Of a stretch of 64,000 nt of DNA, positions 6,734 to 49,000 are shown piece after piece. The stretch lies in contig CM060900.1 in NCBI GenBank assembly GCA_030762935.1, forward strand, positions 439,207,259 through 439,271,258. The letters are read 5' to 3'. The notes beneath the pieces were generated by a model that was given only the letters and a program-made list of their open reading frames with translations, was not told the DNA's origin and did no database searches. Origin of the DNA: Hymenopus coronatus. Taxonomy: Eukaryota; Arthropoda; Insecta; Mantodea; Hymenopodidae. The first letter of the stretch is position 1; each line of letters opens with the position of its first letter. The position numbers were made by a program, and so were the translations under genes.

Positions 6734-7858
6734 TCAAAATATCACACCAAATTTTAATAAACTGTTGAAATGTGCAAAATATAGATTCCTCAAAGTTTTT
6801 AAGTTTGCAATATTTTTTATAGATCTAAACATAAAACAAAGCTGACTCAACTTAGATGCCAGTTTCTCAACGTGCAAGCTCCATTTCAAGTGCTCATCAA
6901 TACATACACCCAGAAATTTGGTAGTGGGTCTATAATGCACTAGTTCATTTTCTAGTTTTATTTGCGGCTTATGGACAGTGGTATTCTGAATGTGACTGAA
7001 TGAAATGGCTACAGATTTATTCTTATTTATTATCAACTTATTTTGAACAAACCATTCCTGCATTTTTTGTACTGAAATCGATATATCTGCTTCCACATCT
7101 TTAGTACTACCCATTATGTCTATGGATGTGTCATTAGCAAACAAAACAATGTTACTTGAATGTAGATAGTTTACTAAGTCATTGATGTATAATAAAAATA
7201 GAAAAGGCCCTAAAACTGAACCTTGGGGAACTCCACAAGTTACATATTTTTTATTAGGTCTATACACTTCAGATGTGTTATTATGGGAATTTGGTTGTAC
7301 TATTTCAACTAGTTGCTCACGTTGATTTAGATATGACTTAAACCAGTCGTTTGCTAGACCTCAACCCCAAAGAATTCCAATTTTTTTCAGCAAAATATTA
7401 TGATTAACTAGGTCAAAAGCCTTGGAAAGGTCTAGAAATATTCCGATATTGTTTTCTTTTTTATCTAGTGAACCGTATACTGCATCTAAGAAATTGAATA
7501 TGGCTGTCTCAATTGATTTACCTTTAATAAACCCATTTTGTGCTGCAGTTAACATATTATGTTTTTGTATGAAATTTTGACATCTATTATACATAGCCTT
7601 TTCTAGTACTTTTGAGATGGAAGATAATATTGCTACTGGTCTATAGTTTTCAGTTTTACTCTCGTCACCCTTTTTAAATATAGGTATTATTTTTGCAGTT
7701 TTCATACACTCAGGAAACACGCCTGTTGAGAAGGAAGCATTAATTAAATAGCAAAGAGGTGTAACAAAAAGCTGATAACAGTGTTTAAAAATACAATCAG
7801 GAATTTCATCTATTTCATGGGAGGTTTTATTTTTCATGCTCCTTAATATTTTACTCAC
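6734..7858 (-). pseudogene. LINE ORF2 reverse transcriptase domain (broken)
   Basis: The reverse transcriptase copies element RNA at the nicked target. The order of motifs is clear: PIFKKGDES and NYRPVAILSSISKVLE, then GFIKGKS, then FLDLSKAFDLVNH (first catalytic aspartate block), then GVPQGSVLGPFLFLLYINDL, then the catalytic box. The box reads FANDT instead of FADD (codon 7133-7135 is AAT), which removes one metal-binding aspartate. A TGA stop at 7361-7363 interrupts the frame between the FDLVNH block and the GVPQGS block, just where a CGA arginine codon would read through, so CpG decay is a simple explanation. Otherwise about 370 codons stay in one frame, so the copy is not very old. It cannot be active as it stands. 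Confidence 0.9.
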
Positions 7859-8370
7859 TTCACTAGCTGTGACCGGATAAAGGTATATTGAATTGTTATT
7901 TCTAGGGATTTGCTCACTTGTCCATGGTATTTTATGTTTATGTGCAAGATCATTATGTTTACAAAATAATCATTAAATGATCTTGCCACTTCCTTTGGGT
8001 CCGAGATAAGCTCGCCTTCTGTATTTCTAATGGTGGGCTTGTGTTTTAGTGAGCTAATTCCTAATTCTTTATTCACTATCTGCCACATAGTATTTATTTT
8101 CAGATCTTTGTATGGTCATTTCTGTATGGTATTGTTTTGCAGCTATTAGAACCTGTTTATATATCTTTCTGTACTTATTAAAATATAGCTTGAAACTCTC
8201 TGAATTTGTAGTTTTGTTAAGTTCACTAAAAAATTTTAACCTTCTAGATGATTTTACAATTCCTTTTGTTAGCCATGGCTTGGACTTTCCCCCTATTTTT
8301 ATTCGCTTTGCCTAGGTAATACTTTATTATATTAGCAAATGTTTTGAACCCTTCATTTATGTCTACTGCT

Positions 8371-8675
8371 TCATATACTTTTTCCCGTTTCATTTTTTAG
8401 CAAATCTTTGAATATATTTGTATTATTACTGCTATAAATATGTCCTATTCTATACCCATCACTCGAATCATATTTGCGAGCGTTCAAAACAATTTCAAAT
8501 GCCTGTGCTCTGTGATTGGAAAGCCCTGTTTCAACTACTCTAATGTTTTCTACCTTAAGGCAGCCTTGCTTTATTAGCGCTTGATCAACGATGGTTGCCG
8601 AGTGAGTTGTCACCCTAGTGGGTATATTTATAATGGGTATTAGGTTATAGAGTAACATAAATTCTTTCATTATTT
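8371..8675 (-). pseudogene. LINE ORF2 endonuclease, C-terminal half
   Basis: This is the end of an exonuclease/endonuclease/phosphatase (AP-like) domain that would nick target DNA. It contains THSATIVDQAL and GLSNHRAQ; the usual catalytic SDH is SNH here. The frame starts exactly at the insertion junction, and its first codons continue the sentence left at 21616 on the other side of the 12.9-kb element. Downstream (8100-8370) the linker to the RT is frameshifted more than once. Confidence 0.85.
8668..8675. repeat. Target-site duplication, left copy (CATTATTT)
   Basis: Identical to 21608-21615. In the LINE there would be only one copy, because joining 21616 upward to 8675 downward keeps the ORF2 frame. 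Confidence 0.9.
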
Positions 8676-9296
8676 GGTAGGACTTGGACTACTGGGTCTC
8701 GCACGATTTCTAAGTTCTTTTACATGCGCACGGCCGAGCCAGCCGTCTATGTTGTGGTTTGAGGAGTGGGGAGGAGGTAGAAGTGGGGGAAAAGGAATAG
8801 CCCCTACACGCGCAATGCACGGGATTTTAATCAAAGTCGGCCCAGCCGTTGTTAGAAAATGTAACATTTCTAAAAATTACGTACATTTTATTTGCCACAT
8901 AAACATATTTAATGCACAGGATTTTAATCAAAATCGGTCCAGCCGTTTTTAGAAAAAAGTATCAATGGGAAGAGTAGTATGAGGTGAGGATATTTCTAAA
9001 AATCGGCGTGTATCTTTGGAAATAAAATTAAGTTAAACTGAGCTTTATTAATGGACACTGTTTAATTGCTGTGGTTCTCAGCGTCCCATTCTATAGGAAC
9101 AATCAATGTGTTCTATTCACATGACTTTCTCTGTCTGTTGTGCAAACTATTCTTACAACATATTATTATTTTATCCACATCGTGTTAAACAAGATTAGCA
9201 TTAGCAGAAATGCTCATTCTTTGCAATTAGAAGGGAAGCGCTATATGAAACAATTGGCATTGTGTTCTATTTACATGACAAGGAGCAAAACAAAAG

Positions 9297-9545
9297 AGAT
9301 GAGGCCTGCATGGCTGGTGTGGTGGAAGCGTGTCTGCCTCACATCAACAGGTCGCGAGTTCGAATCTCGCTTAGGGTTAAGTTACCCGGATAAAGGTTTT
9401 TTTTTTTCCCTGGGTTTTCCCTTATCCCGAGAAGAAGATGAATGTCGAGTAATTTTAAGCTCCATAGACCCCAAGATCATTTGAGCTCATTTCACCAAGT
9501 TCATTCATCGTCCGGTATGACCCATCAGTTTAAAAGACGTGTTAA
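9297..9545 (+). repeat. tRNA-derived SINE, family A
   Basis: The head begins near GCCTGCATGGCTGGTGTGG, with a B box GAGTTCGAATCTC at about 9356-9368, a T-rich stretch, then GAGTAATTTTAAGCTCC. Further copies are at 11697, 18830-19075 (minus), 20745-20990 (minus) and, outside this element, 62580-62800 (minus). The tRNA-like head carries an internal pol III promoter in such SINEs. Confidence 0.75.
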
Positions 9546-10107
9546 TCCAATAAGAAAAAAAGAAAAGGAGATGAAATGAAAGACCTAGTTTTCATTCCAG
9601 GAAAGTTTTAAGAAGTTTAAAACTGAAACCAAAAAGAAGGAATATTTCGGAACGGCTAACTATACTAAAAACTGTATGACAAATTGTTTGCTGCTAGTAG
9701 AACTACCAGACCCAATTCCTCTCTGTGAGACGACCATCTCTTCCTGCAAGAAAATTTTAAAGTCCTGGCGCATGCGTACTTCCAGACCCGATTCCTCTCT
9801 GTGAGACGACCATCTCTTCTTGCAAGAAAATTTTAAAGTCCTGGCGCATGCGTACTACCAGACCCAATACGTTTATTTGGTCACATAATAATAAGTACAC
9901 CGTGTAATACCAACACGTATGTTTTTATTAAACGTTTATCTGTATTCTTAATAATTTTTGTGCTATGTGACAGTCAGAATTAGGATTGTATCATATGCTT
10001 TTCTGGACACTTAATTATAACACCGTGTAACATCCATGTGTACTTTTTAATATGCTTATCCTTGTGCTTAATAATTAATTAACCACAAAATAGTAATTTC
10101 AGCCACA

Positions 10108-10192
10108 AGTCTCTCGCTCTGGGTAACTCAGTTGGTTAGGCACTGGCCTTCTGATCTCGTAGGATGCGGGCTCAAACCCGGCTCATTTTTTA
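10108..10192 (+). repeat. tRNA-like SINE head (family B)
   Basis: This has an A-box-like TAACTCAGTTGGTTAGG and a B-box-like GGGCTCAAACCC about 40 bases apart, followed by a T-rich stretch. It occurs four times, once per arm unit (also 12424-12500, and minus 18255-18331 and 20097-20176). A cloverleaf is not convincingly complete, so I call it SINE-derived and not a tRNA gene. Confidence 0.6.
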
Positions 10193-10544
10193 CGTTATGT
10201 ACAATGTAGAGAAATATTGTATTGTATTCCACCCAAAAATTCCATGTCGAGATTTCACCAGAAATACATGTTTTGGGTCGACCTGAATCCAAAAAAGCAT
10301 TTTTTATAAAAGGTCCGTGTGCGCGCGCATGTGTGTGTGTCTGTGGACAACATAGCTCAGAAACGAAAAAGTCCGGTAAATACCAAACTTCATATTTAAG
10401 TTCAGTACTTGGACTAATGGGTCCCGCACGATTTCTAAGTTCTTTTACATGCGCACGGCCGAGCCAGCCGTCTATGTATAGTTTGAGGAGTGGAGAGGTG
10501 GTAGAAGTGGGGGGGGGGGGGGGGGGGGAAGGAAAAACCCCTAC

Positions 10545-10975
10545 ACGTGCATTACGTACATTTTATTTGCCACATAAACATATTTAATGCACGGGATTTT
10601 AATCAAAATCGGTCCAGCCGTTGATAGAAAATGTAACATTTCTAAAAGTTACGTACATTTTATTTGCCACATATGCAACATTTCTAAAAGTTACGTACAT
10701 ATTAAAAATAACGTACATTTTATTTGCCACATAAACATATTTAATGCACAGAATTTTAATCAAAATCGGTCCAGCCATTGATAGAAAATGTAACATTTCT
10801 AAAAGATACGTACATATTTGCCACATAAATATATTTAATGCACGGGATTTATTCAAAATCGGTCCAACCGTTGATAGAAAATGTAACATTTGTAAAAGTT
10901 ACGTACATGTTTGCCACATAAACATATTTAATGCACGGGATTTTAATCAAAATCGGTCCAGCTGTTTTTAGAAAA
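10545..10975 (+). repeat. ~97-bp tandem subrepeats in left arm
   Basis: About four to five imperfect copies of a unit containing TTAATGCACGGGATTTTAAT, CAAAATCGGTCCAGCCG and GTAACATTTCTAAAAG. The unit is clearly related to an internal part of repeat R1 (TTTAATATACGG…TTTTAATCAAAATCG…). The matching array in the right arm is at 19420-19745. A G-run of about 19 bases lies at 10510-10528. Confidence 0.8.
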
Positions 10976-11124
10976 TATAACGTTTCTAAAAAGTATCAAT
11001 GGGAAGGGTAGTACGAGGTGAGGATATTTCTAAAACTCGTCGTGTATCTTTGGAAATAAAATTAAATTAAACTGAGCTTTATTAATGGACATTTTAATTG
11101 CTGTGGTTCTCAGCATCCCATTCT

Positions 11125-11465
11125 ATAATCGGTCCAGCCGTTGATAGAAAATGTAACATTTCTAAAAGATACGTACATATTTGCCACATAAATATATTTA
11201 ATGCACGGGATTTATTCAAAATCGGTCCAACCGTTGATAGAAAATGTAATATTTCTAAAAGTTACGTACATATTTGCCACATAAACATATTTAATGCACG
11301 GGATTTTAATCAAAATCGGTCCAGCCGTTTTTAGAAAATATAACGTTTCTAAAAAGTATCAATGGGAAGGGTAGTACGAGGTGAGGATATTTCTAAAACT
11401 CGTCGTGTATCTTTGGAAATAAAATTAAATTAAACTGAGCTTTATTAATGGACATTTTAATTGCT
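11125..11465 (+). repeat. Left-arm-only segmental duplication
   Basis: Repeats the 10770-11100 segment, starting abruptly inside the CATTCTATA motif at about 11120. The right arm at 19270-19500 has the segment only once, so the duplication post-dates arm formation or was lost on the right. Confidence 0.7.
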
Positions 11466-11696
11466 GTGGTTCTCAGCGTCCCATTCTATAGGAACAATCA
11501 ATGTGATCTATTCACATGACTTTCTCTGTCTGTTGTGCAAACTATTCTTACAACATATTATTATTTTATCCACATCGTGTTAAACAAGATTAGCATTAGC
11601 AGAAATGCTCATTACTTGCAATTAGAAGGGAAGCGCTATATGAAACAATTGGCATTGTGTTCTATTTACATGACAAGGAGCAAAACAAAAGAGATG

Positions 11697-11950
11697 AGGC
11701 CCGCATGGCTGGTGTGGTGGAAGCGTGTCTGCCTCACATCAACAGGTCGCGAGTTCGAATCTCGCTTAGGGTTAAGTTACCCGTATAAGGGTTTTTTTTT
11801 TTTTTTTCTGGGTCTTCCCTTATCCTGAGAAGAAGACGAATGTCGAGCAATTTTAAGCTCCATGAACCCCAAGATCATTTGAGTTCATTGAGTTCATTTA
11901 TCGTCCGGTATGACCAATCAGTTTAAAAGACGTGTTAATCCAATAAGAAA
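11697..11950 (+). repeat. tRNA-derived SINE, family A (second copy in left arm)
   Basis: Same structure as the copy at 9297, with a longer T-run (about 15) after the head. The B box GAGTTCGAATCTC lies at about 11751-11763. Confidence 0.75.
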
Positions 11951-12510
11951 AAAAGAAAAGGAAATGAAACGAAAGACCTAGTTTTCATTCCAGGAAAGTT
12001 TTAAGAAGTTTAAAACTGAAACCAAAAAGAAGGAATATTTCGGAACGGCTAACTATACTAAAAACTATATGACAAATTGTTTGCTGCAAGTAGAACTACC
12101 AGACCCAATTCCTCTCTGTGAGACGAACATCTCTTCCTGCAAGAAAATTTTAAGTCCTGGCACATGTGTACTACCAGACCCAATACGTTTATTTGGTCAC
12201 GTAATAATAAGTACACTGTGTAATACCAACACGTACGTTTTTATTAAACATTTATCTGTATTCTTAATAATGTTTGTCCTATGTGACAGTCAGAATTAGG
12301 ATTCTATCATATGCTTTTCTGGACACTTAATTATAACACCGTGTAACATCCATGCGTACTTTTTAATATGCTTATCCTTGCGCATAATAATTAACCACGA
12401 AATAGTAATTTCAGCCACAAGTCTCTCGCTCTGGGTAACTCACTTGGTTAGGCACTGGCCTTCTGATCTCGTAGGATGCGGGCTCAAACCCGGCTCATTT
12501 TTTACGTTAT

Positions 12511-13356
12511 GTACAATGTAGAGAAATATTTTATTGTATTTCACCCAAAAGTTCCATGTCGAGATTTCACCGGAAATACTTGTTTTGGGTCGACCTGAAT
12601 CAAAAAAAAAAGAAAAAGGTCCGTGTGCATGCATGTGTGTATGTGTCTTTGGACAGCATAGCTCAGAAACGAAAAGGCCGGTAAATACCAAACTTCGTAT
12701 TTAAGTTCAGTATATTCCAAGATTGCAACACGAAGATTTTCGAGAAAATCCCCGACCCCCCAACTATCCTTTACATGGAACAATTTTGGCAAATTTTGAT
12801 TTTCTCCCAAATGGCTCTAACGATTTTGATTAAAATATCGTAAATTAAAGATATTTACCTGACAAATAAAATATATATCTTGAATTTCCTGAGAATAGCC
12901 TCTGAAGACTACTTTATTCTGGATGCATTTTACTGAATTTTGCATAACTGGCAAACCGTAAGAGATCGACAGAAACTTACTCCACAAAAAATGTAGATCA
13001 GGATAAAACACATAATTTATGTCATATGCATTTTTTTCGTAGAGTTGGTCGCTTTTGAGATATTCATTGTTTTTGGTTTCAGCTTTGAAAAACTTATACT
13101 TTTCTCATACAGTAATTTGTCAACTCCTGTCCATATAAACAAAGGAACTTCAGTCACATAACAACCAGCTTTTGACTGTCACTTTAACCTATGGTACTCC
13201 CTTATTTCGCCTCTACTTACAAGGAAGCAAGTAATAAGACTATTTCTGCTAATTTTTTCTCGATGAGAGTGAAGTAAATTGAAGCATAAGCTTTTTAACA
13301 ATGATTCGTTGCAGAGATGTAGAGAAAGTCATGTGAATGGAACACAAAAGAGAAGT
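12511..13356 (-). repeat. R1 repeat copy in the core (near complete)
   Basis: Reverse orientation of the R1 repeat. It runs from the TAGAGAAA/ACCCAAAA end at 12515 through the GTGTGTAT microsatellite, TTTCGTTTCTGAGC (reverse), the purine-rich block and the CCTCTGAAG/ACGGTTTGCC block, to the terminus TAGAGAAAGTCATGTGAATGG at about 13330. R1 encodes no recognisable protein. A degraded opposite-orientation R1 piece follows at about 13430-13730. Confidence 0.75.
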
Positions 13357-13834
13357 TGATACGGTACATTCATTTGGCTTTCTGTGTAAAATTATCGTTT
13401 ATTAGTGGCGATACCAACAAATCGTTTGAAGGTTTATTTTTCTATCTGCTTCATTTTAATCGAGACAAACCTCTGGACATATTATTATTAGCTCAAATGT
13501 TATTTCATATTTCCTCATAGTTGAAAAGGAAATGACGGAATACACTAGACCAAAGCGAAGATCGCAATATGATTGCTTTGAAATTCGCTTCTCTTTGCAT
13601 GGCCACATGTTAAAATGTTAGGATCTATCTTCTGTGTTATGTATTGTAAAACTGAAACTAACAAGGAATATCTTGAAAACTGTTAACTTCACACAATAAT
13701 ATATGCCTGACATTGTGTATTATCTTGCTCTATTTTTCTCTGTAATAATTTTGATTAACAAAATAACTTGGGGGGGATGCACAAAGATGTATATATGGGG
13801 TTGGAGAGGAACTCAATGATAAAATGTAATTTAT

Positions 13835-14520
13835 ATGTGTATAGTGGGGAGTTCATATGGGGATGGTGAGGGCAGTGTATAGTGGGGAGTTTATATGGGG
13901 ATGGTGAGGGCTGTGTATAGTATGGAGTTCATATGGGGATGGTGAGGGCTGTGTATAGTGGGGAGTTTATATGGGGATGGTGAGGGCTGTGTATAGTATG
14001 GAGTTCATATGGGGATGGTGAGGGCTGTGTATAGTGTGGAGTTCATATGGGGATGGTGAGTGCTGTGTATAGTGTGGAGTTTATATGGGGATGGTGAGGG
14101 CTGTGTATAGTGTGGAGTTTATATGGGGATGGTGAGGGCTGTGTATAGTATGGAGTTCATATGGGGATGGTGAGGGCTGTGTATAGTGGGGAGTTTATAT
14201 GGGAATGGTGAGGGCTGTGTATAGTGTGGAGTTTATATGGGGATGGTGAGGTCCTGTGTATGGTGTGGAGTTCATATGGGGATGATGAGGGATGTGTATA
14301 GTGTGGAGTTTATATGGGGATGGTGAGGGATGTGTATAGTGGGGAGTTTATATGGGGATGGTGAGGGATATGTATAGAGGGGAGTTTATATGGGGATGGT
14401 GAGGGATGTGTATAGTGGGCAGACTATATGGGGATGGTGAGGGATGTGTATAGTGGGGAGTTTATATGGGGATGGTGAGGGATATGATAGTGGGGAGTTT
14501 ATATGGGGATGCAGAGGAAA
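13835..14520 (+). repeat. 38-bp minisatellite, ~18 copies
   Basis: The tandem unit is GTGTATAGTGGGGAGTTTAT + ATGGGGATGGTGAGGGCT (38 bases). Copies vary mainly at TGGGG/TGTGG/TATGG, at TTTAT/TTCAT and at the unit end (GGGCT in the first two-thirds, GGGA in the last third). The array ends about 30 bases from the stop codon of the transposase gene at 14552. Confidence 0.95.
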
Positions 14521-14551
14521 TTATATGGGAATGAAGTTGTGAATATGTATT

Positions 14552-15709
14552 TTAATTCGGGAAACAGATGTGGCATAAACAATTGTCCAGGTCTGGTGAC
14601 ATTGCAATTTTGCCCACACCTGGATAGGCGGTGGCGATATCCTGGAGCAATGCCTCAAACCGCTGGGTATGGTTTTGTAGGTGATTAAGTTTGTTCTCTC
14701 TGTACATAAACACTCCAATGTAACTGGATGCATGCTCGATGCTTGTGCATGTTGCCAGGACACCTTTTAAAGATCTCCATGACCTTTCTTTGTTTTGGGT
14801 ATGATACCGCAAGGGTCTCATATTGGGGGCTGGCGCAGGCCATACCCATTGCCTATCCAGACATTCAGGATTAAAGTCCTCTTCTGGTACCCAGAAAGGA
14901 TCCATATTTCTCGGTGGGTTTACAAACTGACGTTTGTGGTTGACGGTGCCATGGCCTGTGAAAACAGCATTGCAGGCTCTGTATGCCCTCCATTCGTCTG
15001 TGATTACAAAACTTTCGTAGGCAATGTACTTCTGCATAATGGGCAGCAGAGCATCCGTTGAGCGATTTGGCACAAGGAGTGCAAAACGTAATTTCGTTGT
15101 GCGACTTATCCCACCGACTAACCAATAATGCCGCCACATTACCTGTCGTCCAACATTGTATTTTCTTTTGAACAGATGAGTTTCATCCACTTCCACGATG
15201 TCGTTGGGACCACCTAGTTGTTGGAAATCGTGCCAGGCGATTTTGGTGGCCACATCCCGGAAGTATCTGCTCCATGCTACAGCGTTATCTTGTGCCACTC
15301 CCAATTCTTCCTGGATGTAGGACAAAGTACACTGCCGCATCCATAAAAATGCGAACTGAATAATTATGTCGCTGCGCAATTCGGCATTAAAACGCACACG
15401 TTGCAAAAAGGTGTTATTTGTCGCCTCTAAACGGTGGCCGTTGGAGCATTTAAATCTCCAGCCGAGACCACGATTAGCCGATGCAACTGTGTGCATCTGC
15501 AAATTACACCGAGGACACCTGCGACCTCGGTTGGCACGACGGTTTTGCATTTCTGCATCCCTGTCCGGAACAGTTCCATAAAGCAGAAAAAACTCCAAAC
15601 CTTTTCGGTTTGCTTCCCTTTTCTCTTCATCTGTAATGCAGTACCCAAAATGGGCACTTAGCAATCTGTAAGTTAACCTGCCAGTTTGCATGAGTTCGCG
15701 GGCGTTCAT
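14552..15709 (-). CDS. IS1595/ISXO2-family (Merlin-like) DDE transposase
   Basis: Predicted to cut and join the ends of the transposon. The frame opens further upstream, but the first ATG is at 15709, giving 385 residues. A polypyrimidine stretch and CAG just before the ATG could be a 3' splice site for a 5' UTR intron. An N-terminal zinc ribbon is visible (C65-P-R-C68 … C88-x3-H92). The catalytic core follows: IVEVDETHLF (D175), VITDEWRAY (D238) and HTQNKERSWRSLK (E308), in line with the DDE core of this family. The usual FV-x-P segment (QFVNPPR) is followed by about 35 extra residues rich in W and P before HTQN, so D238 to E308 is 69 residues instead of the usual mid-thirties. The C-terminus ends with a CxxC pair. 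There are no stops or frameshifts. GC appears near 50 per cent against about a third in the flanks. I am confident of the family; activity and the Merlin label are inference. Confidence 0.85.
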   Translation of the reverse strand: MNARELMQTGRLTYRLLSAHFGYCITDEEKREANRKGLEFFLLYGTVPDRDAEMQNRRANRGRRCPRCNLQMHTVASANRGLGWRFKCSNGHRLEATNNTFLQRVRFNAELRSDIIIQFAFLWMRQCTLSYIQEELGVAQDNAVAWSRYFRDVATKIAWHDFQQLGGPNDIVEVDETHLFKRKYNVGRQVMWRHYWLVGGISRTTKLRFALLVPNRSTDALLPIMQKYIAYESFVITDEWRAYRACNAVFTGHGTVNHKRQFVNPPRNMDPFWVPEEDFNPECLDRQWVWPAPAPNMRPLRYHTQNKERSWRSLKGVLATCTSIEHASSYIGVFMYRENKLNHLQNHTQRFEALLQDIATAYPGVGKIAMSPDLDNCLCHICFPN

Positions 15710-16130
15710 CCTGAATGCAAGTTGTAGGCAGAATGAATTGCAGTGCAATCCCCAATGCTAAATGCGCCGAAAATACAAGTTTTCCCGCTAATGGCAAATC
15801 GTCAGATATCATTGTTAAGCAACTCCTCGAGGTAGCGGTGTGGGGAAGGGAGAGGTGTAGTGTTAAGCAGAGGAGACCAAAATTACCTACCTGGATTTAG
15901 TTATGCAAGCTAAGAGGGAAAATCCAAAAACTGCTCTACATTTTCACATAATATGTGTATGTAAATGCATAAATAAAAGTAACATGATCAATAAAAAGAG
16001 TAAACCTACATCATTCTTGAGAAACAAATCAATTGTTATGTTTCTGTTTGTTGAAAGCGTGAATTCATTCATAATCACATAAATGTAATATTAAGCCCGC
16101 GATTCGTCCCATAAAAATGGGGGGTCCCCC
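15710..16130. other. 5' flank of transposase gene
   Basis: The first ~150 bases keep the higher GC of the gene (probable 5' UTR). The rest is AT-rich and shows nothing recognisable. No TATA box is convincing. Confidence 0.4.
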
Positions 16131-16135
16131 TTTTT

Positions 16136-16635
16136 ACTTTCTCTATACGCACTATGTACACACAGTGTATAGAGAAGGTATTGCACTCCACTCAGAAATT
16201 CGATACCGAGATTTCACTGGAAATATACGTTTTAGGGTCCCCTGTATAAAAAAAAATATATATTCACAAAAAGTCCGTGTGTGTGTCCGAGTGCCCATGT
16301 GTCTATGACCACAGTAACTCAAAAACGAAAAGTCGGTAAAATACCAAACTTGGTATTTAAGTTTAGTATCTTCCAGGGATGCGACACAGATTTTGAGAAA
16401 AATCCCCCCACCCGCAACTACCCTTTACATGGAACTTTTTTCGAAAATTTTGATTTTCTCAAAAATGGCTCTAACAATTTTGATTAAAATAGCGTAAATT
16501 AAAGATATTTATATACCAAATAAAATGTATGTCTTGAATTTTCTGGGAATAACCTCTAAAGACTACTTTATTCTGGATGAATTTCACGAACTTTTGCATA
16601 ACTCCTAAACCGTATCTAGTCACAATGTATTATTT
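16136..16635 (-). repeat. R1 repeat copy, truncated, with terminal hairpin
   Basis: Reverse-oriented R1 from TTTACTTTCTCTATAC to the CCTAAACCGTA block, where it stops. The terminus contains a short perfect hairpin: CTATACGCACTATG … CACAGTGTATAG at about 16142-16170. Confidence 0.7.
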
Positions 16636-16794
16636 CTCTAATTTCGTCCAATCAAATTTAACTCGTACGTAATTAATGGTTGCAAACTAAATATGTCAAG
16701 CATGTGATAATTCTTATCTGCAGCTTTCGTCGATATGTACATAATTCCAAGATGTGCAGCCTTAACAGAATTCTAATTTCATTATTAGCAAGCA

Positions 16795-16850
16795 TGCTAA
16801 TATGGTTTTTTAATGTTTCATTTGTATAGCCCCTTTAACTTCAAAGGATA
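16795..16850 (-). repeat. SINE-E tail fragment
   Basis: Contains GTTTCATTTGTATAGCCCCTTTAACTTC, matching the 3' tail of the SINE at 42850 (TTTCATTTATATAGCCCCC) and the sequence hit by the mariner at 29875. Only about 40 bases are preserved. Confidence 0.5.
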
Positions 16851-16865
16851 ATTATTACGCTAGGG

Positions 16866-17985
16866 TTGACAGTACTATTTATACTTTACAAACATCATTG
16901 CTCTGTCACTCGCTTATATCAAAGCATAGGATCACTAAAATCACTTGCAAGACAAATTTTTAAGATTGACATGGCCAGTGAGCAGGTAATTGTAGGGGGA
17001 GACCTAAATCTTCCGCGAGTTAACTGGACGGGTGACGTGAGGGGTGGGGAATTGCAGGCTATTTGCTAATGACCTTGTTTTGGAAGGTGGCCTTGTTCAA
17101 ACTGTAAAAACTCCAACCAGAGAAGGGGCGGTTTTGGACATATTTCCTGTAAAGCCAGAAGAATCTGTACTAGAATGCGAGGTTTTTCCAGATATAAGCG
17201 ACCATAACTGCGTATTACTTAAAATAGAAGGAATACGTGCCAAGTTTCACACGGATGAAATGAGACACTTTTACCAATATTACAAAGGAGACATTCCGAG
17301 GCTGCAAATAATCTTAAACGAAAAATATTCGCTGTGGTCCCAATCTGGAAGCTCGTTAGAAGAAATATAGCAACATCTTAAAACAATTGTTATGGAAGCA
17401 ACATATAAACTTATACCCCGTAAAAGTGTAATGGTTACCATGCTGACTTCATATACCCAAGGTCGCGGGTTCAAACCCGGCGGAGGACGATGGATTTTTT
17501 CGGGCGTAAAAATCCATAGCATGGCTTCCTTCGGAAGGGAAGTAAAGCCGTGGGTCCCGTGTCGTAGATTTACGGCACATAAAAGAACCTCAAGCCTGAT
17601 AAGAGAGGCCTCTGAGCAAAATTAAGCGATCTTTCACGGCCAATATAGAATGGGACGCTGAGAACCAACGCAGTTAAAGAGCGTCCATAAATAACACGCC
17701 ATTTCCATTTTACCCCGTAAAATGCTAAATGAAAGCCCTGACCCGGAATACTACAATAAAATAGTAAAACGGCTAAAGAAACAAGTCAGAAGAGCATATA
17801 GTTCACGAAAAATTAATAATTATCACGCAAATAAATTCCGAGTTTTGTCAAACTTCTACTGGAAAAGATTATGTATTGTACAATTGTACATTGTATTATT
17901 ACATTGATAGCGCTGCCACCGGGCCACGCCCTAAGTGAAATAAAGTATCTAACTATCTATCTATCCATCTATATCTATATTATAA
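16866..17985 (+). pseudogene. LINE fragment: endonuclease part and 3' end
   Basis: A second, different non-LTR element on the plus strand. GGDLNLPRVNWTGD (about 17000-17035) and FPDISDHNCVLL (about 17185-17220) are the GDxN and SDH motifs of the AP-like endonuclease. After a SINE insertion the frame resumes at 17723 (MLNESPDPEYYN, KKQVRRAYSS). It then drops, with loss of the whole RT, to a short 3' end reading GCCTAAG-like CGCCCTAAGTGAAATAAAGT and a (CTAT)n tail to about 17965. It is thus internally deleted as well as 5' truncated. Confidence 0.75.
17426..17710 (+). repeat. tRNA-derived SINE, family C, with 12-bp target duplication
   Basis: The head carries a B box GGTTCAAACCC at about 17468-17478. 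The body has GGAAGGGAAGTAAAGCCGTG and the tail ATAGAATGGGACGCTGAGAA. It is flanked by TACCCCGTAAAA at 17414-17425 and 17711-17722. Removing it restores the LINE frame across the joint. A diverged copy is at 31375-31660, and reversed tail fragments are built into the foldback arms. Confidence 0.85.
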
Positions 17986-18235
17986 AACATAATAAGAGAA
18001 ACTGGCTGCTGGTATTTCTTTCCAGTTTGGATGGGCATTGATAATGTTATATTTTCTCAAAATTACGGCGGCATTCTGTATTAAAGAGCCCATGATTGCG
18101 TGCACTGAATAGGAAAACCAATGAAAGAATAGCAGACGGAAGTACTTTTACTTTCTCTAACACGTATGTAGGAATGATGAACAATGTAGGAAGAGAAAGT
18201 ATTGGATTCCACTCAAAACTTCGATAGTACCGAGA
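17986..18235. repeat. Core edge with short R1 fragment
   Basis: 18140-18235 is an R1 terminus in reverse (TTTACTTTCTCTAACACG … GAGAAAGTATTGGATTCCAC), cut off where the right arm starts. No gene is seen in the rest. Confidence 0.55.
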
Positions 18236-18829
18236 ATTTACATAACGTAAAAAATGAGCCGGGTTTGAGCCCGCGTCCTACGAGATCAGAAGGCCAGTGC
18301 CTAACCAAGTGAGTTACCCAGAGCGAGAGACTTGTGGCTGAAATTACTATTTCGTGGTTAATTAATTATTATGCGCAAGGATAAGCATATTAAAAAGTAC
18401 GCATGGATGTTACACGGTGTTATAATTAAGTGTCCAGAAAAGCATATGATAGAATCCTAATTCTGACTGTCACATAGGACAAACATTATTAAGAATACAG
18501 ATAAACGTTTAATAAAAACGTACGTGTTGGTATTACACAGTGTACTTATTATTACGTGACCAAATAAACGTATTGGGTCTGGTAGTACACATGCGCCAGG
18601 ACTTAAAATTTTCTTGCAGGAAGAGATGTTCGTCTCACAGAGAGGAATTGGGTCTGGTAGTTCTACTTGCAGCAAACAATTTGTCATATAGTTTTTAGTA
18701 TAGTTAGCCGTTCCGAAATATTCCTTCTTTTTGGTTTCAGTTTTAAACTTCTTAAAACTTTCCTGGAATGAAAACTAGGTCTTTCGTTTCATTTCCTTTT
18801 CTTTTTTTCTTATTGGATTAACACGTCTT

Positions 18830-19075
18830 TTAAACTGATTGGTCATACCGGACGATAAATGAACTCAATGAACTCAAATGATCTTGGGGTTCATGGAGCT
18901 TAAAATTGCTCGACATTCGTCTTCTTCTCAGGATAAGGGAAGACCCAGAAAAAAGAAAAAAAAACCCTTATACGGGTAACTTAACCCTAAGCGAGATTCG
19001 AACTCGCGACCTGTTGATGTGAGGCAGACACGCTTCCACCACACCAGCCATGCGGGCCTCATCTCTTTTGTTTTG
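18830..19075 (-). repeat. tRNA-derived SINE, family A (right arm, inner)
   Basis: Mirror of the copy at 11697-11950, with the same B box in reverse (GAGATTCGAACTC near 18993). The T-run is interrupted by a G here, unlike in the left-arm copy. Confidence 0.75.
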
Positions 19076-20744
19076 CTCCTTGTCATGTAAATAGAACACA
19101 ATGCCAATTGTTTCATATAGCGCTTCCCTTCTAATTGCAAGTAATGAGCATTTCTGCTAATGCCAATCTTGTTTAACACGATGTGGATAAAATAATATGT
19201 TGTAAGAATAGTTTGCACAACAGACAGAGAAAGTCATGTGAATAGAACACATTGATTGTTCCTATAGAATGGGACGCTGAGAACCACAGCAATTAAAATG
19301 TCCATTAATAAAGCTCAGTTTAATTTAATTTTATTTCCAAAGATACACGACGAGTTTTAGAAATATCCTCACCTCGTACTACCCTTCCCATTGATACTTT
19401 TTAGAAACGTTATATTTTCTAAAAACGGCTGGACCGATTTTGATTAAAATCCTGTGCATTAAATATGTTTATGTGTCAAATATGTACGTAACTTTTAGAA
19501 ATGTTACATTTTCTATCAACGGCTGGACCGATTTTTATTAAAATTCCGTGCATTAAATATGTTTATGTGGCAAATAAAATGTACGTTATTTTTAATATGT
19601 ACATAACTTTTAGAAATGTTGCATATGTGGCAAATAAAATGTACGTAACTTTTAGAAATGTTACATTTTCTATCAATGGCTGCACCGATTTTGATTAAAA
19701 TCCCGTGCATTAAATATGTTTATGTGGCAAATAAAATGTACGTAATGCATGTGTAGGGGTTATTCCTCCCCCCCCACTTCTACCACCTCTCCACTCCTCA
19801 AACTATACATAGACGGCTGGCTCGGCCGTGCGCATGTAAAAGAACTTAGAAATCGTGCGGAAACCAGTAGTCCAAGTACTGAACTTAAATATGAAGCTTG
19901 GTATTTACCGGACTTTTTCGTTTCTGAGCTATGTTGTCCACAGACACACACATATGCGTGCGCACACTGACCTTTTATCAAAAATGCTTTTTTGGATTCA
20001 GGTCGACCCAAAACATGTATTTCTGGTGAAATCTCGACGTGGAATTTTTGGGTGGAATACAATACAATATTCCTCTACATTGTACATAACGTAAAAAATG
20101 AGCCGGGTTTGAGCCCGCATCCTACGAGATCAGAAGGCCAGTGCCTAACCAACTGAGTTACCCAGAGCGAGAGACTTGTGGCTGAAATTACTATTTTGTG
20201 GTTAATTAATTATTAAGCACAAGGATAAGCATATTAAAAAGTACACATGGATGTTACACGGTGTTATAATTAAGTGTCCAGAAAAGCATATGATACAATC
20301 CTTATTCTGACTGTCACATAGCACAAAAATTATTAAGAATACAGATAAACGTTTAATAAAAACATACGTGTTGGTATTACACAGTGTACTTATTATTATG
20401 TGACCAAATAAACGTATTGGGTCTGGTAGTACGCATGCGCCAGGACTTTAAAATTTTCTTGCAAGAAGAGATGGTCGTCTCACAGAGAGGAATCGGGTCT
20501 GGTAGTACGCATGCGCCAGGACTTTAAAATTTTCTTGCAGGAAGAGATGGTCGTCTCACAGAGAGGAATTGGGTTTGGTAGTTCTACTAGCAGCAAACAA
20601 TTTGTCATACAGTTTTTAGTATAGTTAGCCGTTCCGAAATATTCCTTCTTTTTGGTTTCAGTTTTAAACTTCTTAAAACTTTCCTGGAATGAAAACTAGG
20701 TCTTTCATTTCATCTCCTTTTCTTTTTTTCTTATTGGATTAACA

Positions 20745-20990
20745 CGTCTTTTAAACTGATGGGTCATACCGGACGATGAATGAACTTGGTGAAATGAGCT
20801 CAAATGATCTTGGGGTCTATGGAGCTTAAAATTACTCGACATTCATCTTCTTCTCGGGATAAGGGAAAACCCAGGGAAAAAAAAAAACCTTTATCCGGGT
20901 AACTTAACCCTAAGCGAGATTCGAACTCGCGACCTGTTGATGTGAGGCAGACACGCTTCCACCACACCAGCCATGCGGGCCTCATCTCTT
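20745..20990 (-). repeat. tRNA-derived SINE, family A (right arm, outer)
   Basis: Mirror of the copy at 9297-9545, with the same head, B box and short T-run in reverse. Confidence 0.75.
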
Positions 20991-21607
20991 TTGTTTTGCT
21001 CCTTGTCATGTAAATAGAACACAATGCCAATTGTTTCATATAGCGCTTCCCTTCTAATTGCAAGTAATGAGAATTTCTGCTAATGCTAATCTTGTTTAAC
21101 ACGATGTGGATAAAATAATAATATGTTGTAAGAAAAGTTTGCACAACAGACAGAGAAAGTCATGTGAATAGAACACATTGATTGTTCCTATAGAATGGGA
21201 CGCTGAGAACCACAGCAATTAAACAGTGTCCATTAATAAAGCTCAGTTTAACTTAAGTTTATTTCCAAAGATACACGACGATTTTTAGAAATATCCTCAC
21301 CTCATACTACTCTTCCCATTGATACTTTTTTCTAAAAACGGCTGGACCGATTTTGATCAAAATCCTGTGCATTAAATATGTTTATGTGGCAAATAAAATG
21401 TGCGTAATTTTTAGAAATGTTACATTTTCTAACAACGGCTGGGCTGACTTTGATTAAAATCCTGTGCATTGCGCGTGTAGGGGTTATTCCTTTTCCCCAC
21501 TTCTACCTCCTCCCCACTCCTCAAACCACAACATAGACGGCTGGCTCGGCCGTGCGCATGTAAAAGAACTTAGAAATCATGCGGGACCCAGTAGTCCAAG
21601 TCCTACC

Positions 21608-21615
21608 CATTATTT
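21608..21615. repeat. Target-site duplication, right copy (CATTATTT)
   Basis: Identical to 8668-8675. It starts at the first base after the inverted terminus CCTACC. Confidence 0.9.
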
Positions 21616-22150
21616 TACATAATTTACCAGGGGAGAAGTCAATGTTCCAGTCTCCTATTATTACAATATCTTTAGCAGGTTGCAAATTATCTAGAATGGC
21701 ACCTAGACTTGTTATTAATATGTTAATGTCACTTTCTGGTGCCCTATAAATACAAATAATAACTATGTTATGTTTGGTTACTTCTATTACACTGGCCTCA
21801 AAGTGTGATTCTATGCTTTCAGCTCTTATTTTTGGTATCTCCCTAGCTTCTAAATTTACTTTAGTTGTTATGCACGAACCACCATGTTTTTTTCTAGATC
21901 TACAGTAATGTGAAGCAAGTTTATAATTATCAAAACTTAGGGATTGTATTTCATTACTATCCAGCCAGTGTTCCGTAAGGCAAATTATATCAGGATCAAT
22001 TTCACCTGAATCAAGCAAGACTTCAAACAATAGTTTCTTATTTCTAAAGCTCTGTACATTTTGATGGAAAATCCTGATTGTATTTTCCACTGTCATAAGC
22101 TTGGCTTTTTTACTTTTCACACTTTGAAGAATCTGTCTGCTACTTACCAC
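21616..22150 (-). pseudogene. LINE ORF2 endonuclease, N-terminal half
   Basis: The first M of this frame is at 22150. It shows HQNVQSFRNKK (the QN motif), then ICLTEHWL (catalytic glutamate), then HGGSCI, IICIYRAP and VIIGDWNIDF (GDxN motif). This is the usual order of the AP-like endonuclease of LINE ORF2. The true protein sequence stops at 21616, where the 12.9-kb element entered; anything further left in the same frame is transposon sequence. Taken with 8371-8675, all endonuclease blocks are present, with SNH in place of SDH at the last. Confidence 0.9.
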
Positions 22151-22200
22151 CTCAGAACTATTGTGTAGTGATCTGGCTATATCACCATCTGAACTATCAG

Positions 22201-23270
22201 TTAGTTTCCCTGTTGATGTTTACAAATTTCAACTAGTCTACTTACGGCTTGGCTAAGCAAAAATGAACCCTTGAAATTCAGATGTAGCCCATCTCTTCCT
22301 AGGCATTTGTAGTCTATAAACCTGTTAACGTCACAGTAAATTGCATTCAAACTCTGACAAGCCCAGCGCAAGCTGCTGTTAATTTTGTTTATGTATTTTT
22401 CATGAACATCCCTACGTTTAATCACAAAGTTCACCATAACACGTGCATTAGGAAACTTCTTCTTCACTTCTCTGATGGTACCGTATATTTCTCCCATCAC
22501 CTCATCCGGATTGTTGGAGTTCTGGATATCGTTGGTGCCAACATGCAACAAAACTGTTTTTGGTTGCTGCCTTCCACTGTGCATATTTTCGATCTTCTTC
22601 TGCAACTGGCCAGCCTTTATGCCGCGAAACACTTGGATGCCCACTTCCTTCACCTTCACATGTTTTATCATGGAGTCACCCATTAACAACATCTCACTTT
22701 GTATCCCTTTATCTTTGTTTCGATTCACCGCCATCTTAGATTTTGCACTGGGATTTATCCACATGTATTTGCTTTTCACGACTTCGTGCACTTTAGGGGT
22801 GTTGATAACTTGTTCCATAGTTTTGACCGGTTCTTTTAGCACTTCGTTTTTGTTTGATATTTGAAGACCGCAAGGAACATTCTTCTCACTATTAGCACTT
22901 CTGCCACGTTTTTTCGCAATTGTGGAGTATAGGGTATTTCCCGCGCTTCAGCCTTTAGTTTGTCGTTTTCAGTTCTTATTTCCCGAGCTTCCTCCTTTAG
23001 CTTGTTGTTTTCACTTCTTAAGCTATTTAGTTCGTCTTGTGCTTTTTTAAAATCCTTGTTTAAGATATTTATCACTAGTTGCAGTGAAGCTATAACTTCG
23101 GCGTCACGTGCTCCTCGCTGCCCTCGTTCTTCAGCCGCTTCCCATTCTTCTACTGCTCCGATTCTTGTATCTTCATTTATACTATTTCCTATGGCTTTGA
23201 AATTATCATTGATAGACCCCTTTGTTACTATTTCGCCATTTTTACTGTTTATTTCACGTAATTTGTTCAC
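22201..23270 (-). pseudogene. LINE ORF1: coiled coil plus SGNH esterase (one frameshift)
   Basis: ORF1 proteins of CR1-group elements bind element RNA, and some carry an SGNH-hydrolase (esterase) domain. Here the N-terminal part (23270 to about 22940) has a strong coiled coil with repeats of KLKEEAREI and KLKAEAREI. After a single frameshift near 22940-22930 the second frame carries LLMGDSMIKH (nucleophile serine), LLHVGTNDI (GxND block) and GRDGLHLNF (DxxH block), so the three catalytic blocks of the esterase are kept. The frame closes at 22201, and ORF2 begins about 50 bases further on. One indel is the only break that I see in ORF1, which suggests a fairly young copy. Confidence 0.85.
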
Positions 23271-29874: not shown

Positions 29875-31165
29875 CGAGGGGCATACTGAAAGTCATGAGC
29901 AACACTGTTTTACAATCTTAATATTTATTTTTAAGCCAAACCAAATACATCATCATAATCTACAGACTTTCTTTCAATTTTCGACATAGTCTTCATTGTT
30001 TTGCACACATTTTTCCCATCGTTCTACTAGTTTGAAAATGCCCTTGTGATAGAACTCTGTTCCAGCTGCCCGCAGACCCTGACGCACTGCTTTCTGAATA
30101 TCCTCCAGCATCTGCTCCTTCACAGAACCGAAAAGATGGTAGTCGGAGGGTGCCAAGTCGGGACTGTAGGAAGCATGTGGAAGAGTTTCCCACTCTAATG
30201 CCCTGATCTTCTCCATAGTGGCAAGGGCAGTATGTGGACGCTCATTATCCTGTTGAAGGATGATCCTCTTTCCAGGGCGTTTATCATGCAAAGCCTGACG
30301 GAGCTTCAGAAGTATCTTGATGTAGCGGGCAGAATTTATGGTTTGTCCAGGTTCAAGAAAGTCAACCAGAATGCAACCTTGTGCATCCCAAAAGACACTT
30401 CCCATAACTTTTCCTACAGACTGCACTGTCTTCGCTTTCTTCTTCGATGGTGAGTTCAAGTGGTGCCATTCCATACTCTGACGTTTCGTTTCTGGCTCAT
30501 AGTGATGGAACCAGCTCTCATCTCCAGTCACAATACACGTCAAAAATTCATCACCTTCGTTATGAAATCTCTGAAGAAGGTTTTGTGCAATGGTTCTTCT
30601 CTGAAGTTTGTGGTCTTCAGTCAATAAACGGGGCACCCAACGGGCACAGACCTTTCGATAACCCAAGCTGTGGATCACTTCTTGCACTGCACTATGTCCT
30701 ATTCCAAGTTGCGCAGCAATTTCATTCACAGTGAAACGACTATCTCCTGTAATGAGCTCATCAACTCTTTCCTTGTTGCGTTCTGTAGAGGCAGTTCGAG
30801 GACGCCCGCTACGAGGCGCATTTTGCAGACTCGTGTTTCCATCTTTGAAATGTTTCACCCATCTTCTAACACTGCTGGCACCCATGCAGACACCTCCATA
30901 TGCACGTTGAAGTCTGAGATGAATTTCAGGAGCAGATTTTCCTTCTTTCACAAGGAATTCAATGACAGCACGCTGTCGAAACTAAACATCAATGTCAGCC
31001 ATTTTTCAAACACCGTCTGTGGTCACGTGATAGAAGCTAATGACGTCACAATATGTCAACATGTGGCTTAAAGTCTGTAGATTACGATCCTGCAATTCGT
31101 TTCGTTACATTGTTGAAATTTAAATTTTTACAATGGGTTGCTCGTGACTTTCAGTATGCCCCTCG
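29875..31165 (-). mobile_element. Mariner element, nearly intact (1,291 bp)
   Basis: The terminal inverted repeats are 29 bases long with one mismatch (CGAGGGGCATACTGAAAGTC…), at 29875-29903 and 31137-31165. Both ends are flanked by TA, the duplicated target of this superfamily. The single gene inside fills most of the length. The flanking DNA is a broken SINE tail. Confidence 0.95.
29974..31002 (-). pseudogene. Mariner transposase (one in-frame stop)
   Basis: It cuts and pastes the element at TA sites as a dimer bound to the terminal repeats. The natural start is the ATG at 31002 (MADIDV), giving 342 codons, the normal mariner length. A TAG at codon 7 (30984-30982) is the only break. The next ATG in frame is at 30951 and would drop 17 residues before the first helix-turn-helix. 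The paired HTH region, the linker WVPRLL (usual form WVPHEL), TGDESWF (D about 161), LQQDNERPHTA (D about 252) and YSPDLAPSDYHLF (D about 287) are all present. The last two aspartates are separated by exactly 34 residues (DD34D). The catalytic core thus looks complete. Whether initiation at 30951 gives an active protein is unknown. Confidence 0.95.
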
Positions 31166-47720: not shown

Positions 47721-47785
47721 AGTTAACTTTGCCAAGGCGTGCAGTACTTCACATGCAAATTTTATTTTTTAAATTAAAACCATAC

Positions 47786-48526
47786 CTTAGACATGACTAC
47801 CTCATCCACGTATGGTTCCATGTCTGCCCACTCCAGAACCACCTGTGATCCAAAACGTAATTTCAACTCTGATGGCAACAACCTTTTAGCAATGGCTCCA
47901 GATCGGTGAGAGTCAAATTCTAGGAACACATATCCTCTTCCAAGATTTTTGTTTTCCACACTGGGATACATGATTACATCTTGTACACCCTCCACCAACT
48001 GCTTTAAGGTCTGAAGAATTTCATCCTTCTGCATGTGCTTGGGCAATCCTCCCAAGAAAAGTCGCCGATTGTCCAAGGACGGCACTACACCTATACGACG
48101 ACCCGGTCTCATCTCATACTGGTTTAGTCCCGAGCAGGCGAGCGAAGCTTCCCATGGGTTGCTCATCGTTACAAATCCAAAACCCTTGTTTTCACCTGAA
48201 AACTCCATCATTAGCCTCATTTCGTAAATTGTTCCATAATTTCTAAAAAGAGGAACCAACTCATACTCAAAAGCGTCACGTGGAATTCCGCCAATGAACA
48301 ACTCACTGCCTTTAGCGGGCCTAGGCCCTTTCCAATTAGGCGGCGGCCCATACCTTCTCTGCCCGTTTATTTGCGCCAATTCATATCCTGTGTCTTTACA
48401 CAATTCTAACAGCCTTACTTGCCTTTCCGTTATATTTAACGGAGTATGTTCATAATTTGGTACGTTTTGTTTGACATGAGCACCTCTTATTTGTCTTCCC
48501 ATCTCTTGACTGTAGATTCCACTCAT
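47786..48526 (-). CDS. RBM46/RBM47/A1CF-like RNA-binding protein, exon 1 (RRM1-RRM2)
   Basis: First coding exon of a nuclear/cytoplasmic RNA-binding protein of the RBM46-RBM47-A1CF-SYNCRIP group. Vertebrate members bind AU-rich mRNA and act in mRNA stability, C-to-U editing or germ-cell mRNA control. The ATG at 48526 is the first after an in-frame TAG (48550-48548), so the start is well supported. 247 codons end in phase 0 at the donor AAG|GTATGG. The N-terminal ERQVRLLELCKDTGYELAQINGQRRYGPPPNWKGP block is written here in two parts because it is the family signature: ELAQINGQRRYGPPP leading to W-KGP. RRM1 (about residues 74-150) has LFIGGI and KGFGFVTM; RRM2 (about 155-235) has LFLGGL and RGYVFLEF. 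RRM3 is on exons 2-3. Frame intact, with codons typical of a conserved gene. RBM46 versus RBM47/A1CF orthology is not decided. Confidence 0.95.
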
Positions 48527-49000
48527 CAAAGGAACGCGCAGTCTACACTAACACATTAACACTTCTTCAGGTCACCAGTTTCCATAGCATCTGTACCGGT
48601 GGAGAGGGGGGATAGAAAGAGTTGCATACACATTAAGTCGTGGCGCGCTTTCTTGCAATATTACACCCAACTGTCAGCAGTGGTGGACGTGGGATAAAGG
48701 CTACATTGGAAAATAAGCACCACATGAGTACTGTTGGTCGCAAGTGTAGTTAAGCGGGAAAAAAAACATTTGTAATTAGCACCAAGTCATATCGCACGTA
48801 ATATTTTAACAGCGAGAAAGCAACGAAGTAAACAAACTTCAATGTAGGTTGCCAGATTGGGCGAATAGTATCGGATTGGTCAAATAAAAGATCGATTTTG
48901 CGACGGATTTTTAATTGAAGCGATTTGCGAATTTGTGGCTACTTCTGAAATTACGAAAATAATTTAAATTTATTTCTTGAAAAGTATATTTTATATTGTT
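48527..49000. other. Upstream region of the RRM gene
   Basis: 5' UTR and promoter should lie here unless there is an upstream non-coding exon. The 48540-48700 stretch is less AT-rich. No TATA box or initiator stands out, so I make no promoter call. Confidence 0.35.

Follow-up and report, generated by a model that had tools for sequence, protein, structure and literature searches.

A foldback transposon with kilobase-long repetitive arms and an IS1595/Merlin-type transposase gene in the mantis Hymenopus coronatus

Merlin transposons are described as having terminal GG dinucleotides, target-site duplications of 8 or 9 bp and terminal inverted repeats (TIRs) of 24-462 bp, the last being a reported range with no membership criterion stated in the excerpt used here (PMC8101967), and the IS1595 family is characterised by the DDE_Tnp_IS1595 catalytic domain and by 8-bp duplications (duplications from PMC8101967). 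Long, internally repetitive arms are described for Galileo, a member of the P superfamily in Drosophila, whose arms contain tandem repeats and have recruited further sequence, whose copies without matching duplications are in some cases chimeric, and whose longest D. willistoni copy measures 9,021 bp with arms of 4.2-4.7 kb (PMC4168063, PMC3573991). Foldback-like composite TIRs accompany a putative transposase in Tm1 (Mutator/Foldback) of root-knot nematodes (PMC3169594). All statements on these systems draw on excerpts of the cited papers. Here, a 12,932-bp element at positions 8676-21607 of a 64,000-nucleotide stretch of Hymenopus coronatus contig CM060900.1 (the window) is compared with them, and is read, with a probability of roughly 85%, as a class II (cut-and-paste type) transposon of the IS1595/Merlin kind in which the inverted arms have become very long and internally repetitive.

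The element resembles Merlin in its DDE_Tnp_IS1595 domain, its D-D-E positions, its 5'-GG termini and its 8-bp duplications (PMC8101967), and differs in its length of up to 12.9 kb, in the 69 residues between the second D and the E, and in conserved CxxC/CxxxH and CxCHxC-like motifs. It shares with Galileo the long arms with internal tandem repeats, the recruitment of further sequence into the arms and the presence of copies without matching duplications (PMC4168063, PMC3573991), whereas Galileo, as excerpted, has a P-type (THAP) transposase in place of PF12762 and duplications of mostly 7 bp; the longest-armed D. mojavensis Galileo copies are described there as never nearly complete, while in the present family the transposase frame is open in the copy with the longest arms. 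Tm1 is similar in its foldback-like composite TIRs and putative transposase, and is set apart by a Mutator Phantom-like transposase and 9-bp duplications (PMC3169594). Among open papers, judged by title and abstract, none described a Merlin foldback, a long-TIR Merlin or an insect IS1595-type element; subscription papers and Repbase lie outside this scope, and a Repbase entry for the element may already exist.

The element lies within a long interspersed nuclear element (LINE) and is flanked by the 8-bp duplication CATTATTT (8668..8675 on the left, 21608..21615 on the right), and the boundaries proposed in an earlier note on this DNA proved correct to the base. The inverted ends GGTAGGACTTGGACTACTGG named there are exact at 8676-8695 (+) and 21588-21607 (-), and with up to three mismatches allowed this sequence has two matches in the window, namely the two ends, against none in 100 shuffles. 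Alignment of the arms, the open frame and the PF12762 domain likewise bear out the long arms and the 5.7-kb core (12518..18235) with an open IS1595/ISXO2-type transposase gene. The left arm (~3.85 kb, 8676..12517, +) contains one arm module twice, as an outer and an inner copy, together with tandem repeats of 76-bp and 93/363-bp units; it aligns with the right arm (~3.37 kb, 18236..21607, -) with 3,338 of 3,397 columns identical (98.3%), and exceeds it by one 456-bp block of tandem repeats. An internal duplication junction at 10398..10416 (+), where the end of the outer module is joined to a terminus minus its outer ~6 bp, recurs in the right arm at 19868..19886 (-). The arms are of foldback type, the inverted ends of the family being variable in length (~0.27-3.9 kb) and containing 76-, 93- and 363-bp tandem repeats.

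Removal of the element together with one CATTATTT copy leaves a single open LINE endonuclease frame (...GKLCKIM-KEFMLLYN...), as had been claimed. The 5' part of the LINE (21616..22947, -) carries a GDSL-lipase-like open reading frame (22204-22947) and the first part of the endonuclease, and the 3' part (6734..8667, -) carries the remainder of the endonuclease and frames that we take, from their motifs, to be reverse-transcriptase-like. A 300-mer joining the two flanks has 38 matches in the genome (3.13 Gb, 384 contigs), of which 34 are single alignments through the junction and represent unbroken LINE copies, the best junction-spanning match having 98% identity over positions 1-299; two others come from the window itself, one for each half of the query (1-150 and 143-300, overlapping by the 8 bp), and two stop short of the junction. 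Empty LINE sites, which the earlier note proposed to look for in other individuals or alleles, are present as paralogous copies in the genome (34/38 matches).

Many other copies with the window's ends are present in the same genome, as anticipated: a 401-base arm query (8684-9084) has at least 56 genome matches, with 40 of 1,131 candidates scored. Twenty family stretches were fetched, with completing pieces for some, and 12 of these together with the window provide 13 independent two-ended sites; left out of the count were L015, L016, L023, L025, L026 and L027, which have one end or none, and L018 and L028, which are duplicates of the L017 site. Wherever a duplication was found it was 8 bp long, as the earlier note had expected (9/13 sites, one of them with a mismatch). 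The duplication is perfect at eight of the 13 sites, comprising the transposase-bearing window (CATTATTT), L010 (CATTTGAC), L011 (GTCCAGCA), L013 (GAGAATAA) and L017/L038 (AGAAGGGA), and the copies L014 (AAAAAATT), L021 (TTCGCCAC) and L022/L033 (GCTACACT), which are without transposase; in L020, also without transposase, the flanks GGCGTCTC and GGCGCCTC agree at 7/8 positions. The transposase lies between the same ends at eight sites (window, L009-L013, L024/L032 and L017/L038), five of which have an 8-bp duplication. Terminal 5'-GG is present at the recognised termini, the exceptions being L016, which reads TGTAGG, and the right end of L024/L032, which reads TGTATC; no terminus was seen in L026.

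Three size classes were found in the family. The usual transposase-bearing form (L009-L013 and L024/L032, the latter 7,452 bp) is 7.4-8.9 kb long with 1.5-1.8-kb arms; in L009-L013 a first inverted-repeat block of 1,164-1,632 bp extends to 1,495-1,757 bp when differences in the number of tandem repeats are bridged, and four copies of 7.4-7.9 kb are at least 99.2% alike over the terminal 1 kb. Copies of 2.8-3.1 kb without transposase (L014 and L019-L022) have one long arm and one short end and are internal deletion derivatives; L014 and L019-L021 have inverted ends of 273-275 bp, and the short end of L022 consists of a 237-bp block and a 153-bp repeat of part of the same block. Because four of these five derivatives carry the duplication, one with a mismatch, one short end seems to be enough for mobility, the transposase presumably being provided in trans. 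The third class, of ~12-13 kb, contains the window element, L017/L038 (11,988 bp), L028/L040 (11,696 bp) and L018/L039 (12,225 bp). The arms of measured transposase-bearing copies, at 1.5-3.9 kb, exceed the 24-462 bp reported for Merlin (PMC8101967, excerpt), in agreement with the earlier note. Its proposal of an undescribed giant foldback relative of Merlin, should the transposase move the element, is supported as to the foldback structure, the Merlin features and the arm length, and is refined as to size: transposase-bearing copies of this family usually measure 7.4-8.9 kb, and the 12.9-kb element is an enlarged form.

The transposase is encoded by an open frame of 401 codons (14552-15757, -) with a PF12762 match (E 4.5e-11) above the curated cutoff, and comparison with relatives indicates that translation likely starts at codon 17, giving a gene at 14552..15709 (-). 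A candidate triad D191-D254-E324 aligns with the D-D-E of the IS1595-type protein P0018, with 69 residues from the second D to the E against 34 in P0018. Two protein searches returned 13 and 18 relatives, the named ones from Holotrichia oblita, Aquatica leii, Macrosiphum euphorbiae and Aphis gossypii, and none of these relatives was named Merlin. Identity to ten aligned relatives is 41-53%, and to P0018 24%; N-terminal CxxC/CxxxH and C-terminal CxCHxC-like motifs are conserved in the aligned relatives. P0018 contains Zn_ribbon_IS1595 (PF12760, E 5.9e-11), one of the N-terminal domains (Zn_Tnp_IS1595/Zn_ribbon_IS1595) that members of the Merlin superfamily are expected to lack. At E<=1 the window protein gave no match to it, and PF12760 was not among the ten families matching any of the 11 aligned members, but most of these members conserve a CxxC...C...H motif. 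The transposase represents a divergent DD69E branch, and the element is Merlin-like by its domain, ends and duplication. An AlphaFold2 model (predicted local distance difference test score, pLDDT, 79.5) matched retroviral integrases in the PDB (11 at E<=0.001, template modelling scores of 0.17-0.46), weakly suggesting a fit to an RNase H-like DDE core. Five weak relatives (22-30% identity) were found in GTDB genomes, and none in phage records or IMG/VR.

At least 126 transposase-matching stretches were found in the genome, with 103 of 877 candidates scored, and five of these matches span residues 1-401 at 96-100% identity and are stop-free. Six copies were compared: L024 has one stop, and the aligned part of each of the other five (in L012 to residue 389) is free of stops; the ratio of nonsynonymous to synonymous substitution rates (dN/dS) is 0.11-0.41 over the 15 pairs, a value that is suggestive only, with at most 18 differences per pair. 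A more distant paralog, L035 (G000:C3:47392500-47398500; C3:47395257), has a 397-codon open frame ~50% identical to the transposase and no convincing ends within 6 kb, and may be another family or a domesticated gene; the distant paralogs L036 and L037 (27-31%) likewise have no convincing family ends in 2.9 kb. At G000:C18:162459321-162513032, many transposase fragments occur with a spacing of ~3.17 kb, apparently as a tandem satellite-like array derived from the transposon's gene.

Comparison of the arm modules indicates how the 12-13-kb class may have formed. In the window the modules are more alike between arms (left1-right1 98.7%, left2-right2 98.9% identical) than within one arm (left1-left2 95.8%, right1-right2 95.7%), which places the doubling before the last common state of both arms. 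The arm-doubling junction was found in both window arms and in L005, L008, L017, L018 and L028. At the AGAAGGGA site, the left end is 98% identical to the window's outer module, and the right end, which has its own intact terminus, is 94-97.5% identical to the inner module against 92.6% to the outer; as the right end resembles the inner module, the form at this site is one-sided, and that in the window two-sided. The simplest order would be that one arm doubled first, that the element carrying the doubled arm then moved between LINE sites, and that the doubled arm was then copied onto the opposite arm by conversion or hairpin repair; the events may also have run in the reverse sequence, or the junction may have been spread by conversion.

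Cores in opposite orientation were found at the AGAAGGGA site. L017/L038 and L028/L040 share their left flank at 308/311 bp, their right flank over its first 188 bp and the AGAAGGGA duplication, and despite this common site their cores are oppositely oriented, as would be expected if the arms recombine with each other and the core flips. In bacterial insertion sequences, inverted ends are reported to recombine and so produce inversions (PMC3004938, excerpt). By coordinates, 15 copies of one element-in-LINE insertion are spread over megabases (G000:C21 420-434 Mb, C27, C32 and C21:486 Mb) and have apparently been amplified; 14 are oriented as L017 and one, L028 at C21:486 Mb, is reversed. The flank was read in seven of the 15, and is the AGAAGGGA-side LINE flank in six and other sequence in L018. 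This copy, L018/L039 (G000:C21:434042362-434054586), has the AGAAGGGA LINE flank on one side and GATCGTAC exactly at the other terminus, a change of flank that points to a rearrangement breakpoint at the transposon end.

The reading of the element as a long-armed IS1595/Merlin-kind transposon draws on features read directly in the sequence, namely the anatomy, the duplications at 9/13 sites, the empty LINE sites, the transposase at eight sites and the deletion derivatives, together with the doubling junction common to two sites and the inverted core between duplicated copies. From these we strongly infer that the element was moved by its own transposase. The DDE transposase would recognise at most the outer few hundred base pairs, cut at the 5'-GG ends and insert with an 8-bp stagger, and the long arms may provide it with secondary binding sites in arrays, a role proposed for those of Galileo. 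Several points weigh against this reading. No matching duplication is present at four of the 13 two-ended sites (L009, L012, L019 and L024/L032), and L017 and L018 have broken transposase frames. With identities of 41-53% and 24% and ~35 extra residues between the second D and the E, the place of the transposase relative to canonical Merlin is tentative. Misassembly across inverted repeats of kilobase length could account for the opposite core orientation, and transposition itself is inferred from sequence. The two-sided giant form was seen in the window only, among copies with both ends read, and the window element may have become two-sided after insertion.

A fuller account, the chances of which we put at about even, is that the element belongs to a distinct insect DD69E branch derived from IS1595 in which giant foldback arms evolved independently, that the 12-13-kb elements, with arms of 3.4-3.9 kb and their own transposase, are mobile as units, that one arm templates the other, and that the core flips. 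The strongest competing explanation, which we consider rather unlikely, is that a smaller or one-sided element entered the LINE and the two-sided 12.9-kb form then arose in place, so that the giant form never moved; this would modify the foldback-transposon reading and would not replace it. It is favoured by the greater frequency of the smaller form and by the restriction of arms doubled on both sides to the window, the AGAAGGGA copies having one doubled arm, but two sites whose 8-bp duplications differ both carry the doubled arm with its junction, so that at least a one-sided 12-kb form would have moved, unless the junction was spread by conversion.

An origin in another superfamily (P/Galileo-like, hAT or Mutator-like), with the IS1595-type gene as a passenger or as part of a nested Merlin, is improbable. 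Foldback arms are known from Galileo of the P superfamily and from Tm1 of Mutator, going by the excerpts above, and an 8-bp duplication would also fit P elements. Duplications of this length are compatible with hAT elements as well. However, the same transposase is found within the same ends at eight independent sites, PF12762 is the sole transposase domain in 13 in-element frames scanned against Pfam, no nested TIR with duplication surrounds the IS1595-type gene, and the terminal GG fits Merlin. A palindromic segmental duplication or an assembly artefact in place of a transposon is scarcely credible given the precise ends, the differing 8-bp duplications and the empty paralogous sites, even though the genome does contain segmentally amplified copies (C21 420-434 Mb, C27 and C32).

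Further features of the core include a 38-bp tandem repeat of 17.8 copies (13836..14511), which adjoins the 3' end of the transposase gene and is also matched in all eight other family stretches compared, and a 1,292-bp segment (16454..17745) that contains a LINE endonuclease fragment. The latter segment is complete in L013 and L028, continues in L017 and L018 up to the point where the stretch is cut, is represented by 286 bp at 89% identity in L016, and is absent from all five tested copies of 7.4-7.9 kb (L009-L012 and L024). A short Merlin nested in the core was rejected as a candidate, the search for 20-bp inverted ends with 8/9-bp duplications giving eight hits against 1-11 in ten base shuffles. 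Elsewhere in the window, dispersed repeats ~64-86% similar to arm or core (44.7-45.9, 52.2-53.6, 57.0-59.6 and 62.3-64.0 kb) are perhaps relics of the same or related elements. An open transposase frame of 335 codons at 29974-30981 (-) is presumably mariner-like, judged from its sequence features, and a large exon-like frame at 47774-48547 (-) belongs to an RBM46/ACF-like RNA-binding protein gene, its best named insect match being from Blattella germanica at 50%. The window gave no matches to Rfam and none in a tRNA scan.

The element is a long-armed variant, and an unusual one, of a known transposon type; its gene is apparently intact, and its family has many copies in the same genome. Foldback arms, so far tied to P-type (Galileo) and Mutator-type (Tm1) transposases, are now also found in the IS1595/Merlin lineage, and with a third transposase lineage carrying them, long repetitive arms seem to have arisen repeatedly and not to be the property of one enzyme. 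According to the excerpted published work on Galileo, there are no functional D. willistoni copies and no transposition was obtained with reconstructed enzymes; in contrast, the open frames and the copies at least 99.2% alike make the function of long arms directly testable in this family, and its one-sided and two-sided forms provide a natural series for the growth of foldback arms.

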